The translations under genes and the position numbers were made by a program. Source: a virus. Taken from it: a stretch of DNA of 22,218 bases. Below the pieces are notes generated by a model, which saw only the letters and a list, made by a program, of their open reading frames with translations, ran no database searches and was not told the DNA's origin. Shown piece after piece: positions 1 through 22,218 of this stretch. Location of the stretch: IMG/VR virus record IMGVR_UViG_3300023215_000567, positions 1-22,218 of that record, one strand, 5' to 3'. Every line of letters starts with the position of its first letter. The first letter of the stretch is position 1.

Positions 1-324
1 AGCAGCTAATTGACCGCTTGCATTTACTGTTAATTCTGCTTGGTCTGCATAGTTACCAATAGCAGCTAGTGCTTGGTATTCTTGCTCAGGCTCTAAACGG
101 TATTGAATACCTGTTTCATCTGCCGCATACGCTGTTTCAATATCACGCTCTAAAAAGCGCGGGTTAGATAAAAGCAATAAACGACCTAGGCCATCAGCAG
201 CAGTTACAACTTTACCGCTTGCAGCTTTGGTTACGAAAGTACCAGGTAAGTATGCACCGGTAACTTGTAGATTAAGTGTTTCAGGTTCGCGCTCTACAGG
301 GCCACGATAAATCACATTAGCCAT
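1..324 (-). CDS. Probable capsid decoration or head structural protein (3' end beyond window)
   Basis: The gene reads leftward off the window edge; 108 codons are visible, starting MANVIYRGPVEREPETLNL. Its ATG overlaps the stop of the DUF2213 gene by one base (TAATG), so the two are translationally coupled. The visible part is rich in beta-prone, Gly/Ala/Thr-rich segments (VTGAYLPGTFVTKAASGKVV, then AADGLGRLLLLSNPRF), with no signal peptide or membrane segment. Small proteins of this kind commonly sit directly after the prohead protease/scaffold gene and before the major capsid gene, and act as head decoration or cement proteins. The functional name is inferred from position and general sequence character; no catalytic motif is visible. 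The C-terminus and true length are unknown. Confidence 0.6.
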   Translation of the reverse strand, partial: MANVIYRGPVEREPETLNLQVTGAYLPGTFVTKAASGKVVTAADGLGRLLLLSNPRFLERDIETAYAADETGIQYRLEPEQEYQALAAIGNYADQAELTVNASGQLAA

Positions 325-1475
325 TATTTATCACCTTCTAAGCCAGCGTTTAAATCAACAGAGTCAAAACCATCATCAATCTTAGCGTTGGTTTGAGCTG
401 TGCGTTTTTGTGGTGCACCGTAACCGCTTGCAACATACTCAGTAGAGTTAGCAGCTAAGAATGATTTAGCAGCATCTAAGCCCATAGCTTTTGCAGCGTC
501 TTTGTTGATGCCCATTTTAAGCGCTTCAACTTGATCAGCGATAGAGTCGAGCTCCTGCTCAGCGTTTGCAGTTAGTTTAGATTCAAGCGTATTTACTTTA
601 GCTACAAGGTCTTTAGCCCAAGCTGGTGTTTCTTCGCTGTTAGTTTGTGGTTCTTGTGCAGGCTCTTTTGGGGCTTGCAATTCATTGTAGGCTAACAACA
701 AAGCATCTTCATCAAGGCCGTTCACCTTAATGCCTGCCGCTTTTAGTTTGGCCTCGATTAAATTACGCATAGCGCGTTCTCCGTCTTGGTTGATTAAATC
801 AGTGTTATTGTAACTGTTTTGGTTATCGTTAGCAAAAAGCGCCTTTAGCTTGTTTGCTACTTTGTCAATGAAGTTGTCGCTTGGCTCGTCTTTGTCTGCT
901 AATGGCTTTTCAATATCATCAATATTAATTACTGATACGTCCTCGCCATTAAAGCGCATAACGGTTGAATCACCACCAGCTGGTTTTTCTGATTCGTGCA
1001 ACATGGCAAGGTGGTCAAAGTTCATGTTTCTAGCTACCATATCGTAGCCATCACCACTTTCATTATTAGCTTCAAAGGTTAAGCCCGTAGATAATCCTAT
1101 CGGCAATCCCTTATCTAATCTATTGGCAAAATACTCACCCTCTTCTGTAGAGCGAAGTTTTTTCTCATCAATAGAAGAGTCAGAGTACCAAATGCCATCT
1201 TTGCTGTAAGTTTTATTAACCTTGCCGCCAGAGTAAAAGTCTATGCCTTCTGGAGAGAATATAGATACATTTCTACCTTCACCGTCAGCAGGGTGTGTTA
1301 ATGATATTGGCTTACCAATCATTGTAGGCATGCCTTTAGAGTTCTCATCCTCTGGATATAAAACCCTATTCATTTTAGCCCCGTTGACAGTGATTGGCAT
1401 GCCCTTAATTAAGTACTTACCATTCTCTTTAGCAACGGAGGCTTTATTTGTATTTGTCAGCAGTATTACGCGCAT
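324..1475 (-). CDS. DUF2213 protein, probable prohead protease with scaffold-like C-terminus
   Basis: 383 residues. The N-terminal 170 residues match the DUF2213 pattern: KGMPITVNGAKMNRVLYPED near the start, TMIGKPISLTHPADGEGRNV, then GLSTGLTFEANN around 127-137 and NMNFDHLAMLHE around 150-161. DUF2213 proteins lie between the portal and capsid genes of many siphophages and are thought to be head maturation proteases; His155 and Ser129 are candidate catalytic residues (inference). Residues 230-340 are Glu/Ala/Lys/Leu-rich and likely coiled coil, as expected of an internal scaffold domain. The ATG directly follows the T tract of a terminator. GAGG in the 3' arm of that hairpin is spaced 7 bases from it and can serve as ribosome binding site. 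An internal Met26 is a less favoured alternative start. Confidence 0.85.
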   Translation of the reverse strand: MRVILLTNTNKASVAKENGKYLIKGMPITVNGAKMNRVLYPEDENSKGMPTMIGKPISLTHPADGEGRNVSIFSPEGIDFYSGGKVNKTYSKDGIWYSDSSIDEKKLRSTEEGEYFANRLDKGLPIGLSTGLTFEANNESGDGYDMVARNMNFDHLAMLHESEKPAGGDSTVMRFNGEDVSVINIDDIEKPLADKDEPSDNFIDKVANKLKALFANDNQNSYNNTDLINQDGERAMRNLIEAKLKAAGIKVNGLDEDALLLAYNELQAPKEPAQEPQTNSEETPAWAKDLVAKVNTLESKLTANAEQELDSIADQVEALKMGINKDAAKAMGLDAAKSFLAANSTEYVASGYGAPQKRTAQTNAKIDDGFDSVDLNAGLEGDK

Positions 1476-1503
1476 AAAAAAGCCTCGTGATTAACATGAG
1501 GCT
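1476..1503 (-). terminator. Rho-independent terminator abutting the DUF2213 start codon
   Basis: Read on the minus strand, AGCCTCATG, loop TTAAT, CACGAGGCT form a nine-pair stem (one G-T pair), followed at once by a T tract and then the ATG. It would stop transcripts arriving from the small-gene block above 1540. The 3' arm carries GAGG, the likely Shine-Dalgarno sequence of the next gene, so the intact hairpin would also hide that site. A closely similar structure precedes the portal gene at 21240-21269. Confidence 0.8.
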
Positions 1504-1504
1504 A

Positions 1505-1519
1505 ATTGTATCATTTATT
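1505..1519 (-). promoter_or_regulatory. Putative late promoter, copy 1 (AATAAATGATACAAT)
   Basis: The 15-mer AATAAATGATACAAT on the minus strand is identical to the one at 21225-21239 on the plus strand. It contains TGATACAAT, a good extended -10 element (TG-N-TACAAT). No convincing -35 is visible, so it may need an activator. A start site 6-8 bases downstream would fall within the 5' arm of the adjoining terminator, so transcripts begun here would lack the full hairpin and escape termination. The repetition is seen directly; the promoter function is inferred. Confidence 0.5.
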
Positions 1520-1539
1520 TTATTTGTGTGTTAGCTGAG

Positions 1540-4794: not shown

Positions 4795-6222
4795 CCACGC
4801 ATCGTAAGGATTGCTGTCTCGTGTGGTAAATGCCATTATCACAGCCTCAAGCACATTGGGGCTGCTTACTCCACGCTTCTTCATCTTGTCTTTAGGCTCA
4901 ACACGTAACTTACCATTTAAATACTCGCGCCTAGGTTGGCTAGCTTCACCTTTAATCTTACTCAAAACTTTCTCTGGTATTTTATCGCTATCAAAGCTAA
5001 TTAACTTATCTGCATCGTATGGCTTGCCGTTTCTAGCCTTCCATGCGTTGTAACAGCGGTCGCGTAAATTCCAATAGTCTTGCGCTTTGATGTTAGTAAA
5101 CATATCCTTGTTTGTGCGGTCTATGCCATGTTCAGCATTGATTGTCTCTACTCGATAACCCTCTTGGTAAAAATCATCAGGGTTAGCGACTGAGCCAGAT
5201 GCGTAATAAGCCGTTATTGCAGGTGGCTTTTTACTGCTTAATTCCATGCGTTCTACTTCATTGCGTAATTCACCCTTAGCGCCAGCACCTACGCCGATAG
5301 CATCAAATATAATCTCTTCTACGCCGTAGCTAATTGAATCATGCCACACGTGATTAGCAGCGCTATTTGGGTCTGTATCTTTCCACTCTTCAAGACCCTC
5401 AACAATCCAGCCGTGAACATATGCAACTGCGTTATAATCTGCGCCCTCATCGGCTACATCGAATCCAGCAACCTTACCGCCGCTTGGTTTAATACCTAGC
5501 TCTTTATGCAAATCGATAGTAGCAGCAAACCATTTAGGCGGGATGATAGCTAAATCAGAGTTTGCAACCGGTTCGCCTAGGTAAACGTGGGCGTGTAGGT
5601 CTGGGTCATTCTCTTTCATAAGCTCAAGATCATCTTGAAGTTCGGGTGGGAATCTTGGGTTATCAGTGTAATTTATTTTCTTAGTGATGCAGTATCGTTT
5701 GCCATTTTTGTAGTCAGGGTAGTACCTCTCGGTAACAAACATTTTATAGGTAGCATCAAGCGGGCTTTCAGGGTTGAATGAAACGAATATTTCGCTACCT
5801 TCTTTTCGTAAGGTCGGGATGAGGAACTTCCATGATTCGGCGCTAACGTTTGCCGCTTCTTCTACCCAAGCACAATCAAAGTTAGAATAGCCCTTTAGTT
5901 TTTGCTGGTTGCGCATCAAGCCCTCAAACTTAAAAACGCCGCCAGAGGTTAAACACTGTATTTCAGTCCGAAGTATATTGAAGTGTTCGCCTAGGTCGCG
6001 CCTGTGTATTTCTTCTATAATTTCCTGCATTACAGAATCTTCTATAGACTTTTGTATTTCCCGCAAGCAAACAACACGCCAGCCATTATATAGGCAGTTG
6101 GTAACCAGCAAGGTAACGAAGAATCTTGTTTTCCCGCTACCTCGACCGCCATATGCTACTTTAAAACGAGCGCTTTGCAGGTACTCTTTAAAGCATGGGA
6201 ACACTTCTATATTTTCACTCAT
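4789..6222 (-). CDS. terL: Terminase large subunit
   Basis: 477 residues, normal for the family. It packages concatemeric DNA into proheads using ATP and cuts it. The ATPase domain has a Walker A loop GGRGSGKT (25-32), Walker B in CAWVEEA (117-123) and a coupling motif near VSFNPES (147-153). The C-terminal RNase-H-like nuclease has Asp255 in GFDVADEG, Asp307 in IIFDAIGVG and Glu459 in SPNVLEAVI, as in Terminase_3-type (P22/SPP1-like) enzymes. The start overlaps the HNH gene stop as ATGA and shows no strong ribosome binding site, so coupling is likely. It follows the small terminase and HNH genes on the same strand and is closed by a terminator at 4666-4686. Confidence 0.95.
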   Translation of the reverse strand: MSENIEVFPCFKEYLQSARFKVAYGGRGSGKTRFFVTLLVTNCLYNGWRVVCLREIQKSIEDSVMQEIIEEIHRRDLGEHFNILRTEIQCLTSGGVFKFEGLMRNQQKLKGYSNFDCAWVEEAANVSAESWKFLIPTLRKEGSEIFVSFNPESPLDATYKMFVTERYYPDYKNGKRYCITKKINYTDNPRFPPELQDDLELMKENDPDLHAHVYLGEPVANSDLAIIPPKWFAATIDLHKELGIKPSGGKVAGFDVADEGADYNAVAYVHGWIVEGLEEWKDTDPNSAANHVWHDSISYGVEEIIFDAIGVGAGAKGELRNEVERMELSSKKPPAITAYYASGSVANPDDFYQEGYRVETINAEHGIDRTNKDMFTNIKAQDYWNLRDRCYNAWKARNGKPYDADKLISFDSDKIPEKVLSKIKGEASQPRREYLNGKLRVEPKDKMKKRGVSSPNVLEAVIMAFTTRDSNPYDAWL

Positions 6223-6806
6223 GGCATATCAACCCAATACCTATTTAGCTTTCTTATGTTATCCGCCTTATTTAGTAACTGTAAATTGTGCCAGCAATGC
6301 AATCCACAAACTAAATCACTTTTAAGTGGAACTACATGATCAACCTCAAACCCAAACTCTCTTGCTTTTTCAAAAACTATTTTTATCTTTTCCCTTTCAA
6401 ACCAGTCTGGTATGGCCCTTTTTTGCCTAGCTATTCTTTCGTGCCTTTTTGCTAGATAGTAATCCCTATCTCTCTCCCTTCTTGCCTTCTCTGTTATTTT
6501 CAGTCTATCCCTGTGTTTATCCCTGTAATTAATACCGTACTGTCTAATCTTATCTTTATTTATTTTTTGCCACTCTGCTACATACCTCTTTTTATCAGCA
6601 GCCTTTTCTCTGTAGTTTCTTTTCATCGCCTCAAGCCTAGCTTGCCTATTATCCTTGTAGTCCTTTGATTTTGCTATTAGAGCACAATCCCAACAATTCT
6701 TGTTAGATACAAGTCTCTTTGATACATGACCATGCTTGCAGGGTTTTCCTGTAAAGTAGTGCTTCAAACCTTTAGACTTAGCTTCCGCTCTAGATATGAC
6801 GTTCAT
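6219..6806 (-). CDS. HNH endonuclease between the terminase subunits
   Basis: 195 residues. The N-terminus has a probable zinc site (Cys23, His25/His27, Cys38, Cys41 in GKPCKHGHVS and NCWDC). A long, very basic helical linker follows (about 45-140). The C-terminus is an HNH nuclease: VDHVVPLKS (Asp156, His157), GLHCWHNLQLL (His173, Asn174) and NKADNIRKLNRYW (Asn183). GAGG with a 7-base spacing supports the start, and the end overlaps the large terminase ATG. HNH proteins next to terminases assist DNA cleavage in some cos phages, but free-standing HNH proteins are also homing endonucleases; sequence alone does not decide. Confidence 0.88.
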   Translation of the reverse strand: MNVISRAEAKSKGLKHYFTGKPCKHGHVSKRLVSNKNCWDCALIAKSKDYKDNRQARLEAMKRNYREKAADKKRYVAEWQKINKDKIRQYGINYRDKHRDRLKITEKARRERDRDYYLAKRHERIARQKRAIPDWFEREKIKIVFEKAREFGFEVDHVVPLKSDLVCGLHCWHNLQLLNKADNIRKLNRYWVDMP

Positions 6807-9298: not shown

Positions 9299-9477
9299 CA
9301 CTTAACCTCGCAAAATAAATCAGTAAATAATACGTACTCGATATATGTTTGTGTTTCGCAGCTAGTGTAACCAGAGTTAACCGCCATAGATTGCACGAAT
9401 GAAGCCATTAAGCTCAATAAGCACCACAAAGCCAGTAAAACAAGAAAACCTTTAGTGAATTCGATTAACTTTTTCAT
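9298..9477 (-). CDS. Small membrane or exported protein (59 aa)
   Basis: It starts MKKLIEFTKGFLVLLALWCL, with a basic start and a hydrophobic helix to about residue 30, then a polar tail with two cysteines (SCETQTY, LFCEVK) that would face the periplasm. The Met at 9477 is chosen over an upstream in-frame ATG at 9504 because the latter lies inside the preceding gene and AGAG directly precedes 9477. Function unknown; superinfection exclusion or lysis control would fit such proteins but nothing proves it. Confidence 0.6.
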   Translation of the reverse strand: MKKLIEFTKGFLVLLALWCLLSLMASFVQSMAVNSGYTSCETQTYIEYVLFTDLFCEVK

Positions 9478-20455: not shown

Positions 20456-21213
20456 TGGCATTTAGAAAAGATTTAATGATACCTAAGACGGTTGAAGAAT
20501 TAATAAAAGACCGTGATGAGATTATTCTAACATTGACACACATGGATAAACTCAAACAGCAAGCCGAGGAGCAATGTAAAAGCGTTGGCACTTACATATT
20601 CCCTGTACATCAATTTAGGGGTTATTACGGCATAGAGGTGCTAAAAAAAGACGTTGACAGACGTATGTGGCGACAAACCATAGAGCTAACTGGATTTAAT
20701 AAGTACATGGACAAGATAGCGCGTGATGAGTTTTCCAATTCATTAGAAAAAGATCCACCAGCGTTCACTATAGACAACGTTAGAAGCACACTAATAAGCA
20801 GCTATAACCAAGCCGAGGAATTTATGAATCGTGGTGTTGTAGAATTATTTAGGCGGCTTGGCGCGCAATATAAAACCAATGATGCGTTCAAGATTGGCAA
20901 GAAAATAATATTACGCAACTGGTTTACAGTGTTTTGCGGTGACCTGTCAGTTAACTACAACCAAGAACCAGAAATGAATGACCTTGATCGTGTTGTTCGC
21001 ACGCTTGACGGTGTGGAATTTAAAGAGCATTTATTCAGTCAGTCAATGCGCAAGATGATTAAGTGCAAAGAATGCGAGGACGAGTATTTTAAAATAAAGG
21101 CATTTAAAAATGGCAACGCTCATCTATGGCTAAAGCGTGATGATATAACCGACAAAATAAACGATATAATTGCGGCTTGGTATGGTGATGGCAAGATAGC
21201 GTCAACCAAATAG
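20455..21213 (+). CDS. DUF4942 family protein (252 aa)
   Basis: The ATG at 20455 is chosen because GGAGGG lies eight bases before it; a GTG nine bases upstream would sit on that site. Family features: an N-terminal helical region ELIKDRDEIILTLTHMDKLK, MWRQTIELTGFNKYMDKIAR, FMNRGVVELFRRLGAQYKTN and FKIGKKIILRNWF in the middle. DUF4942 proteins occur in phages and mobile elements, sometimes fused to or next to methyltransferases as here; their role is not known. The C-terminus has a Lys/Cys segment MIKCKECEDEYFKIKAFKNG. Last gene before the late cassette. Confidence 0.8.
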   Translation: MAFRKDLMIPKTVEELIKDRDEIILTLTHMDKLKQQAEEQCKSVGTYIFPVHQFRGYYGIEVLKKDVDRRMWRQTIELTGFNKYMDKIARDEFSNSLEKDPPAFTIDNVRSTLISSYNQAEEFMNRGVVELFRRLGAQYKTNDAFKIGKKIILRNWFTVFCGDLSVNYNQEPEMNDLDRVVRTLDGVEFKEHLFSQSMRKMIKCKECEDEYFKIKAFKNGNAHLWLKRDDITDKINDIIAAWYGDGKIASTK

Positions 21214-21224
21214 CCCACCAACCC

Positions 21225-21239
21225 AATAAATGATACAAT
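21225..21239 (+). promoter_or_regulatory. Putative late promoter, copy 2 (AATAAATGATACAAT)
   Basis: Identical over 15 bases to 1505-1519 on the other strand, with the extended -10 TGATACAAT and no clear -35. It sits 30 bases before the portal ATG (29 in the other copy). The predicted start site falls within the 5' arm of the adjoining terminator. Confidence 0.5.
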
Positions 21240-21269
21240 AAAGCCATACTATTAACGTGTGGCTTTTTT
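21240..21269 (+). terminator. Rho-independent terminator abutting the portal start codon
   Basis: AAAGCCATAC, loop TATTAAC, GTGTGGCTTT followed by more T, then the portal ATG. One T-G pair in a ten-pair stem. It closes the 17466-21213 transcript. The end GGCTTTTTTATG is identical to that before DUF2213. Confidence 0.8.
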
Positions 21270-22218
21270 ATGTCTAAAAATTATTTAAACAAAACCTTTG
21301 CGGCAAATATGGCACAGCCAAAAAGCCACCGAAGGAATATGAATCACTTATTCTCTGCGCCTGTAAATTTTGGCGATACAAACCGAGATGACTCTAAATC
21401 GTATGGCTATCCTGATTATATTACTTTCGAGCATATGTATAACGCATATAATCGAGGTGGTTTTTTCAAAGCTATTGTTGATATTCGCCCTGAGCGTTGC
21501 TTTTCAGAAACTCCGTGCGTAATTGATGGTGATGACGAAGATACAGAGCAAAATACAGCATTCGAGATTGCATTCAGAGAGTTTAATAAGAAGTTTAACT
21601 TTTGGAATGTAATGCGCGAGGCGTTTAAATATTCTCGTGTTGGCAATTACGCCACAATTGTTCCTATATTTTCAGAGCGTGAAAAAAACCCAGACCTGCA
21701 AGAGCCAATAAAGCGCGCAGCGGGTATCCTGGCATTAAATCCTTTTTATTACCCTCAATGTAAAGGCGCATCTGATTACGTAAGCGATTACTTTGATAAG
21801 GATTGGAATAAGCCTAAATACTACGAGCTTAATCCGTCCGCACTGCAAGATATGCAAACAACTAACGCTGAGCAGCGTAACCTACACCGCTCGCGTGTAT
21901 TCGTTGTAACTAATGCAGTAGGCGCACAGATTGAAGGTACACCCGCTTTAGAAGCTGCATTTAATGCTTTATTTGACGCAAACAAAATACGTGGCGCATC
22001 ATCCGAGGGCTATCGTAAAAACGCACAGCAGCGCGGTATTATTAGCGCTAAGAATGATAAAGCTGCGGCAGCAATGGGCAACCCTAAAGCTATGGATGCA
22101 CTAGACGAAAAGATTGATGATTGGATTAATAACTATCGAATATTAGCAAAAGAGCTGGGAGATAAAACACTAGAAAAACGCCTAACAAGCCAGCTTGTTG
22201 ATAAAGAAAAAGATCCCT
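21270..22218 (+). CDS. Phage portal protein, DUF1073-type (3' end beyond window)
   Basis: 316 codons are visible, without a stop. It starts MSKNYLNKTFAANMAQPKSH. Features of the DUF1073/Acb1-linked portal family: YITFEHMYNAYNRGGFFKAI with DIRPERCF (entry domain), WNVMREAFKYSRVGNYATIV, ILALNPFYYPQCKG, KPKYYELNPS, NLHRSRVFVV and EGTPALEAAFNALFDANKIR. The portal is the dodecameric DNA channel at the head vertex and docks terminase. Its ATG directly follows a terminator T tract, and the only possible ribosome binding site is a weak GTGG. It is on the opposite strand to the terminase and DUF2213 genes. Confidence 0.8.
   Translation, partial: MSKNYLNKTFAANMAQPKSHRRNMNHLFSAPVNFGDTNRDDSKSYGYPDYITFEHMYNAYNRGGFFKAIVDIRPERCFSETPCVIDGDDEDTEQNTAFEIAFREFNKKFNFWNVMREAFKYSRVGNYATIVPIFSEREKNPDLQEPIKRAAGILALNPFYYPQCKGASDYVSDYFDKDWNKPKYYELNPSALQDMQTTNAEQRNLHRSRVFVVTNAVGAQIEGTPALEAAFNALFDANKIRGASSEGYRKNAQQRGIISAKNDKAAAAMGNPKAMDALDEKIDDWINNYRILAKELGDKTLEKRLTSQLVDKEKDP

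Follow-up and report, generated by a model that had tools for sequence, protein, structure and literature searches.

The window, a 22,218-base IMG/VR virus record akin to Pseudoalteromonas phages vB_PspS-H40/1, XCL1123 and H103, carries before two of its genes a short cassette that joins an extended -10 box, a hairpin abutting that box, a U6 run and an ATG. This cassette is real, conserved and recurrent. We propose, with a probability of roughly 60%, that it is a fused terminator-promoter-start element at which read-through RNA from upstream would be stopped or masked and promoter-born RNA would escape. The features of the two copies are as follows, with the strand in brackets.

1505-1513 (-): extended -10 box TGATACAAT on the DUF2213 side, inside the 15-mer at 1505-1519; TGnTAnAAT is kept in relatives
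1529-1534 (-): weak -35-like hexamer CTAACA with an 18-base spacer; 9/12 matches including the box, could be chance
1481-1503 (-): terminator-like hairpin AGCCTCATGTTAATCACGAGGCT, -9.6 kcal/mol, with covariation among relatives
1497-1498 (-): predicted transcription start, 7-8 bases past the box within the 5′ arm, from general spacing rules
1483-1486 (-): GAGG in the 3′ arm, a candidate Shine-Dalgarno 7 bases 5′ of the ATG, read from the sequence
1476-1481 (-): T6 run adjoining the ATG, read from the sequence
324-1475 (-): DUF2213-like coat-associated gene, 383 aa, PHROG 760, from the ORF and profile matches
21211-21216 (+): TAGCCC at -35 distance with a spacer of 17 bases; the TAG serves the upstream DUF4942 gene as stop codon
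21231-21239 (+): extended -10 box TGATACAAT on the portal side, inside the 15-mer at 21225-21239
21240-21266 (+): terminator-like hairpin AAAGCCATACTATTAACGTGTGGCTTT, whose stretch folds 4.9 sd better than shuffles
21246 (+): predicted transcription start (A), 7 bases past the box within the 5′ arm
21264-21269 (+): T6 run adjoining the ATG, read from the sequence
21270-22217 (+): portal protein gene, truncated where the window stops; Pfam Phage_portal_3, PHROG 146 portal

A reading of the sequence and a motif search of the window found both copies where a first-pass annotation had placed them. The 15-mer AATAAATGATACAAT occurs without mismatch exactly twice, at 1519-1505 (-) and 21225-21239 (+), as does the 12-mer GGCTTTTTTATG, at 1484-1473 (-) and 21261-21272 (+), and the distance from TACAAT to the ATG is 29 and 30 bases, as annotated. 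A motif search for a third copy in the 22,218-base record returned none. On the minus strand AATAAATGATACAAT is followed by the hairpin AGCCTCATGTTAATCACGAGGCT, which contains one A-C mismatch, by T6 and by the ATG at 1475; on the plus strand it is followed by AAAGCCATACTATTAACGTGTGGCTTT, a T run and the ATG at 21270. Each ATG opens a long ORF, the first of 383 aa and the second of 316 aa up to the point where the window stops. The first protein, labelled DUF2213, scores 17.7 against a Pfam cut-off of 22 bits but matches PHROG 760 and has a relative (L277) that passes with 26.5; the H40/1 relative is annotated as a coat protein containing DUF2213. The GAGG said to be masked by the hairpin is present only at the DUF2213-side copy; the portal copy has GTGTGG instead. 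A further stretch, AATAAACGATATAAT at 21156-21170 (+), differs from the 15-mer at 2 positions and lies 69 bases 5′ of the portal copy, in the DUF4942 gene; it is a possible second box.

Taken singly, the pieces of the cassette are unremarkable, and it is their combination that is beyond chance. A generic scanner called only the portal hairpin terminator-like and only the DUF2213-side box promoter-like, and neither of its lists was clearly above shuffles. The portal stretch folded 4.9 sd better than shuffles and the DUF2213-side stretch just 1.25 sd better, and no Rfam family reached its gathering score in the window. The window, however, holds one instance of a repeated 15-mer followed by a repeated 12-mer, and none of 30 Markov sequences has any. 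A chance repeat is ruled out by this test together with conservation at both loci, the portal relatives and the scrambled-control scans described below.

The -10 box abuts the 5′ arm of the hairpin, and a start at normal distance would lie inside that arm. At promoters of the host type, transcription starts 6-9 bases past the -10 box; because the arm begins 0-3 bases past the box, the start is predicted to fall within it. In the mechanism that we envisage, a polymerase arriving from the upstream gene would transcribe the entire inverted repeat, the hairpin and U6 would form and the RNA would be released; in any RNA that escaped termination, the ribosome-binding region would stay held in the stem. 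From the extended -10 box, host RNA polymerase would start 7-8 bases on, inside the 5′ arm and past the GCC clamp. The promoter-born RNA would then have an incomplete 5′ arm, the hairpin could not re-form and the U run would be passed, and the G-rich former 3′ arm would be more open at ribosome-binding distance, with translation from the ATG adjoining the U run. The 45-base element would in this way insulate the head-gene operon from upstream transcription and supply a short leader of its own. We infer the start site, termination, ribosome binding and timing; as to the last of these, gene content suggests that the cassette genes are late and the upstream genes early.

The layout of the cassette, its conservation and its covariation are established by sequence comparison. 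H40/1, XCL1123 and H103 each have the cassette at both loci, the portal box of H103 being TGTTAAAAT. Of the 16 portal loci that we collected in IMG/VR, one (L033) starts within the gene, and the upstream DNA of the other 15 can be read. TGnTAnAAT, the GCCATAC hairpin and a T run reaching the ATG are present in all 15, one of which (L029) is the H103 sequence; the variants among them are L037, with GTC for GGC and hence a stem mismatch, and L041, with five T. Three DUF2213 loci were found: L043 has the cassette, L044 begins inside the gene and L042 is partial, having lost the 5′ arm and retained TGCTACAAT, AAGGGGC, TTTT and ATG. Because L042 keeps both box and start with the 5′ arm gone, these two appear to act as a unit without the hairpin. 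The first-pass annotation would have been undermined by a lack of further copies and of conservation; instead, both loci are conserved in relatives and the cassette recurs in unrelated phages. In the three annotated relatives (H40/1, XCL1123 and H103) the upstream gene is co-directional in 6 of 6 cases, indicating that there is read-through available to block. Upstream reading-frame lengths gave no clean split of co-directional from divergent genes, and the strand count uses the annotated phages alone.

We also considered a third cassette in the H40/1, XCL1123 and H103 group, at L004 37571 (+), L005 42904 (-) and L006 17471 (-), and rejected it: the site lies in an ORF conserved in all three and is without a good -10 box. 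It consists of a terminator-like hairpin and T6 inside the ORF of a putative membrane protein, and its stem is kept in the three phages as its bases vary.

To scan the whole IMG/VR collection, we used the pattern TGnTATAAT, 0-2 bases, GCC, 5-25 bases, GGCTTTTTTATG. The exact layout was found in 29 stretches, which include mutual relatives, compared to 1 when the -10 hexamer was scrambled to TAATAT and 2 when the ATG was replaced by GTA, indicating that the box/hairpin and U6/ATG junctions are both specific. Consistent with a fixed junction at the box, no base separated the box from the 5′ arm in 22 of 56 hairpins from the 106 distinct TATAAT matches listed, and in 2 of 47 from the 96 TAATAT control matches listed; the fair contrast is between these two sets only, since the TACAAT set is enriched by selection of loci. 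Of 21 distinct TGnTATAAT elements, 18 lead into an ORF that is 60 or more codons long. We classified 22 downstream proteins, picked to span different genes: 10 were head, packaging or connector proteins, 7 belonged to PHROG 760, 2 were HNH endonucleases and 3 had no known function. Thus, 17 of these 22 are head/packaging proteins or members of PHROG 760 (the DUF2213-like coat gene). Salmonella phage 9NA has the cassette at a head morphogenesis gene and its E. coli relatives have it too, and variants with altered arms are present in SP069 (with TTTTCT), PJ16 (with five T), AVIO78A and Bas82. No named phage was matched when L130, L272 and L020 were compared in a similar way.

We modelled folding for a set of 36 distinct elements. 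When the RNA was begun at the predicted +7 start, the mean fold weakened from -11.2 to -0.4 kcal/mol and the G-C pairs fell from 4.3 to 0.6. The claim that promoter-born RNA loses the hairpin is thereby borne out in the model, in which a start 7 bases past the box removes most of the G-C base. Three of the 36 hairpins were weak (L097 and L272 at about -3.5 kcal/mol, L119 at -8.3). The accompanying claim, that this RNA leaves GAGG free, survived in part. For the five bases before CUUUUUUAUG, the modelled mean unpaired probability rose from 0.03 in read-through RNA to 0.38 in promoter-born RNA, and the five-base ribosome-site region of the window DUF2213 copy went from 0.20 to 0.47. However, the rise is only partial, and portal copies L026 and L029 stayed at 0.01 in promoter-born RNA. 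In the modelled promoter-born fold of L026, the ribosome-site region pairs with the early coding region. The window portal element is letter-identical to that of L026 and the codons past its ATG differ; its short fragment from +7 is predicted to fold at just -2.0 kcal/mol. Portal copies are without a good Shine-Dalgarno. Collectively, the proposal has better support for the role of the terminator than for that of the ribosome site, and its Shine-Dalgarno part is weak on the portal side.

Copies in which masking is little relieved in the model, and the poor Shine-Dalgarno GTGTGG of the portal copy, fit a simpler account in which back-to-back packing saves space, the hairpin merely ends upstream RNA and its overlap with the ribosome site has no translational role; the separate terminator-then-promoter sites that phage RB49 also has point the same way. 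We regard this account as unlikely, since packing has no need for a box abutting the arm and an ATG abutting the U run together, and the ATG adjoins T6 in the 29 stretches as against the 2 obtained with the ATG scrambled.

The fused cassette, read as a promoter as well as a terminator, raises the question of its -35 region. TTGACA at 4 or more of 6 positions was found in 9 of 33 upstream clusters, compared to 4.4 expected (p 0.02), and most copies are without a full -35 consensus. TAGCCC, or a sequence one change from it, lies exactly 17 bases 5′ of the -10 hexamer in 8 of the 33 clusters, against a shuffled expectation with a mean of 0.12 and a largest value of 3 in 2000 trials; the eight are not all independent, because four are portal relatives. 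The carriers are the window (21211-21216), L026, L032, L034, L038, L092, L275, L025 and L149, and the TAGCCC often belongs to the stop of the upstream gene. It could be either a -35 variant or an activator site.

The absence of a TTGACA-like -35 from most copies would also suit a regulated terminator, with little or no use of the -10 box and with late genes reached by read-through from upstream, helped by a phage antiterminator. Lambda Q-type control likewise has its terminator placed before late genes, which counts for this explanation. It is nevertheless very unlikely: the box is under as much constraint as the hairpin, the count dropping from 29 stretches to 1 when the box is scrambled, and L042 retains the box with its hairpin gone.

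A fused cassette of the kind that we propose would act as RNA, and the arms bear on this. We aligned 19 elements from different loci, 18 of them distinct, with MAFFT, leaving out portal copies and fitting to no structure; the eight-pair stem was paired in 93.8% of 144 cells, and 4 pairs changed on both sides, in 12 such cells. The paired percentage of the stem, the 12 double-change cells and the covariation score were each reached by none of 500 shuffles; 4 double-changed pairs were reached in 29 of the 500 and the number of pair types in 20. When the pairings of the stem were slid, the paired share dropped to 32-62%. Many of the retained pairs are U-G. Because such pairs hold an RNA hairpin and break a DNA palindrome, the covariation with G-U pairs argues for action as RNA. 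A DNA-level site that resembles a terminator, whether a recombination module or the operator of some phage regulator, would agree with the retention of much of the loop in portal copies and with identical elements between unlike flanks, but is more remote still, as the arm sequences vary among phages with pairing retained and many G-U pairs, and fixed positions of T6 and ATG would not be required by an operator or a plain repeat.

Those flanks suggest that the cassette may also be a module junction, on the evidence of two suggestive pairs. In L012 and L021, 40 of 40 bases of the element are identical and the flanks on either side are unrelated; XCL1123 and L050 resemble each other as far as the end of the element and differ beyond it. 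Flank identities are noisy, random pairs reaching 0.62, and only extreme pairs were used, each checked by eye.

Parts of this logic are known from phage T4. According to the portions of PMC2988022 and PMC3014915 available, read-through RNA of e, soc, 49, I-TevI, segB and others folds into a hairpin that conceals the ribosome site, and in the e/I-TevI type a late promoter within the hairpin yields an RNA that is without the 5′ arm and is translated. On that partial account the T4 type and the cassette share a hairpin over the ribosome site in read-through RNA, for the cassette predicted across our 36 elements (mean unpaired probability 0.03). In the cassette the box abuts the arm, and RNA begun at the usual distance would likewise be without the complete 5′ arm. 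Both occur on HNH/homing endonucleases and on late genes, those of the cassette being presumably late. They differ in that, by the same portions, the T4 late promoter is read with the phage's own sigma factor and the cassette has a host-type extended -10; in our elements the box is TGnTAnAAT and not the T4-type late promoter TATAAATA, and the H40/1 annotation names no sigma factor. Nor do the available portions of PMC2988022 and PMC3014915 describe the T4 hairpin as a terminator with a U run adjoining the start codon. The principle of the cassette is thus already known, since T4 hairpins with an internal late promoter use the same logic, and by this analogy the proposed mechanism is plausible and precedented. 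What is new is the fusion: the 5′ arm would be the region of the transcript start, the 3′ arm the region of the ribosome site and the U run the spacer. This fused form recurs at head genes of many phages.

Promoter-early stem-loops (PeSLs) of T4-like phages have a sigma70-like, early promoter. PeSLs are named in PMC4503421, where, in the part available, they are claimed as a site of module exchange and a reference title speaks of composite promoter-terminator motifs. The cassette qualifies as an element of the same description, both being short composite promoter-terminators, sigma70-like and conserved. At 3 or more RB49 sites in the first 50 kb, however, the PeSL-type order has the hairpin and U run 5′ of TTGACA..TATAAT, and the cassette differs from these in having its hairpin 3′ of the -10 box, across the predicted transcript start. 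RB49 has the cassette order at modB (L372, ~9420-9454, -), with TTGACA, a TATTAT box, the hairpin GCCTCC..GGAGGC, T6 and ATG. Since modB is a non-head gene, the layout is not tied to head genes.

A third comparison is with the SAS/ESAS elements of cluster K mycobacteriophages, a conserved 13-mer with 11-19 copies per genome (PMC3203893, in the part available). Like the cassette, these are short, conserved and tied in position to start codons, and roughly half of them have an inverted repeat immediately upstream; neither a terminator U run nor a -10 box is described in the available part of PMC3203893. The 13-mer GGGATAGGAGCCC is absent before both window ATGs, where the sequence differs. A search for terminator-promoter overlap found no description in the literature covered, which was incomplete and does not imply absence, and by term search the main text of the H40/1 genome paper contains neither 'promoter' nor 'terminator' (PMC5288847).

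More tentatively, the copies may represent a widespread unnamed class of ~45-base cassettes, in which one inverted repeat would be terminator, transcript start region and ribosome-site mask; unrelated tailed phages would open head-gene operons with it without a regulator, and it would double as a module junction for gene exchange. If so, phages that use host polymerase could separate upstream from head-gene expression by a single cis element, with no regulator. In that case, operon and transcript starts in uncultured phages could also be located by a simple sequence rule, and the cassette would offer an insulated promoter part that is ready to use.

We also scanned cellular genomes with the pattern. 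Of 197 genomes from the order to which Pseudoalteromonas haloplanktis belongs, 5 contained it without the TG requirement, with 0 for a reversed-pattern control among the matches listed, and it is therefore no general feature of the host. The TATAAT form without the TG requirement matched 82 stretches in GTDB species genomes; because 30 of the 82 lead into an ORF that is 60 or more codons long, these cellular matches are a mix. Among them, TATAAT, a hairpin, T6 and ATG stand in the same order at five Gammaproteobacteria genes labelled truA-like (L296, L331, L333, L336 and L363), a label checked with Pfam on two. The TATAAT form also precedes related genes in 4 planctomycete contigs (L291, L318, L340 and L355), and the one product of the four that was tested gave a borderline Ceramidase_alk match.

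Finally, the two HNH endonuclease genes with the cassette are L011 3470-4180 (-) and L280 1753-2268 (+), an association that recalls the hairpin control of T4 homing endonucleases. The window itself has a 195-aa ORF at 6219-6806 (-), between the small and large terminase genes, whose PHROG matches are of unknown function and whose C-terminal part we take, from its motif, to be HNH-like.
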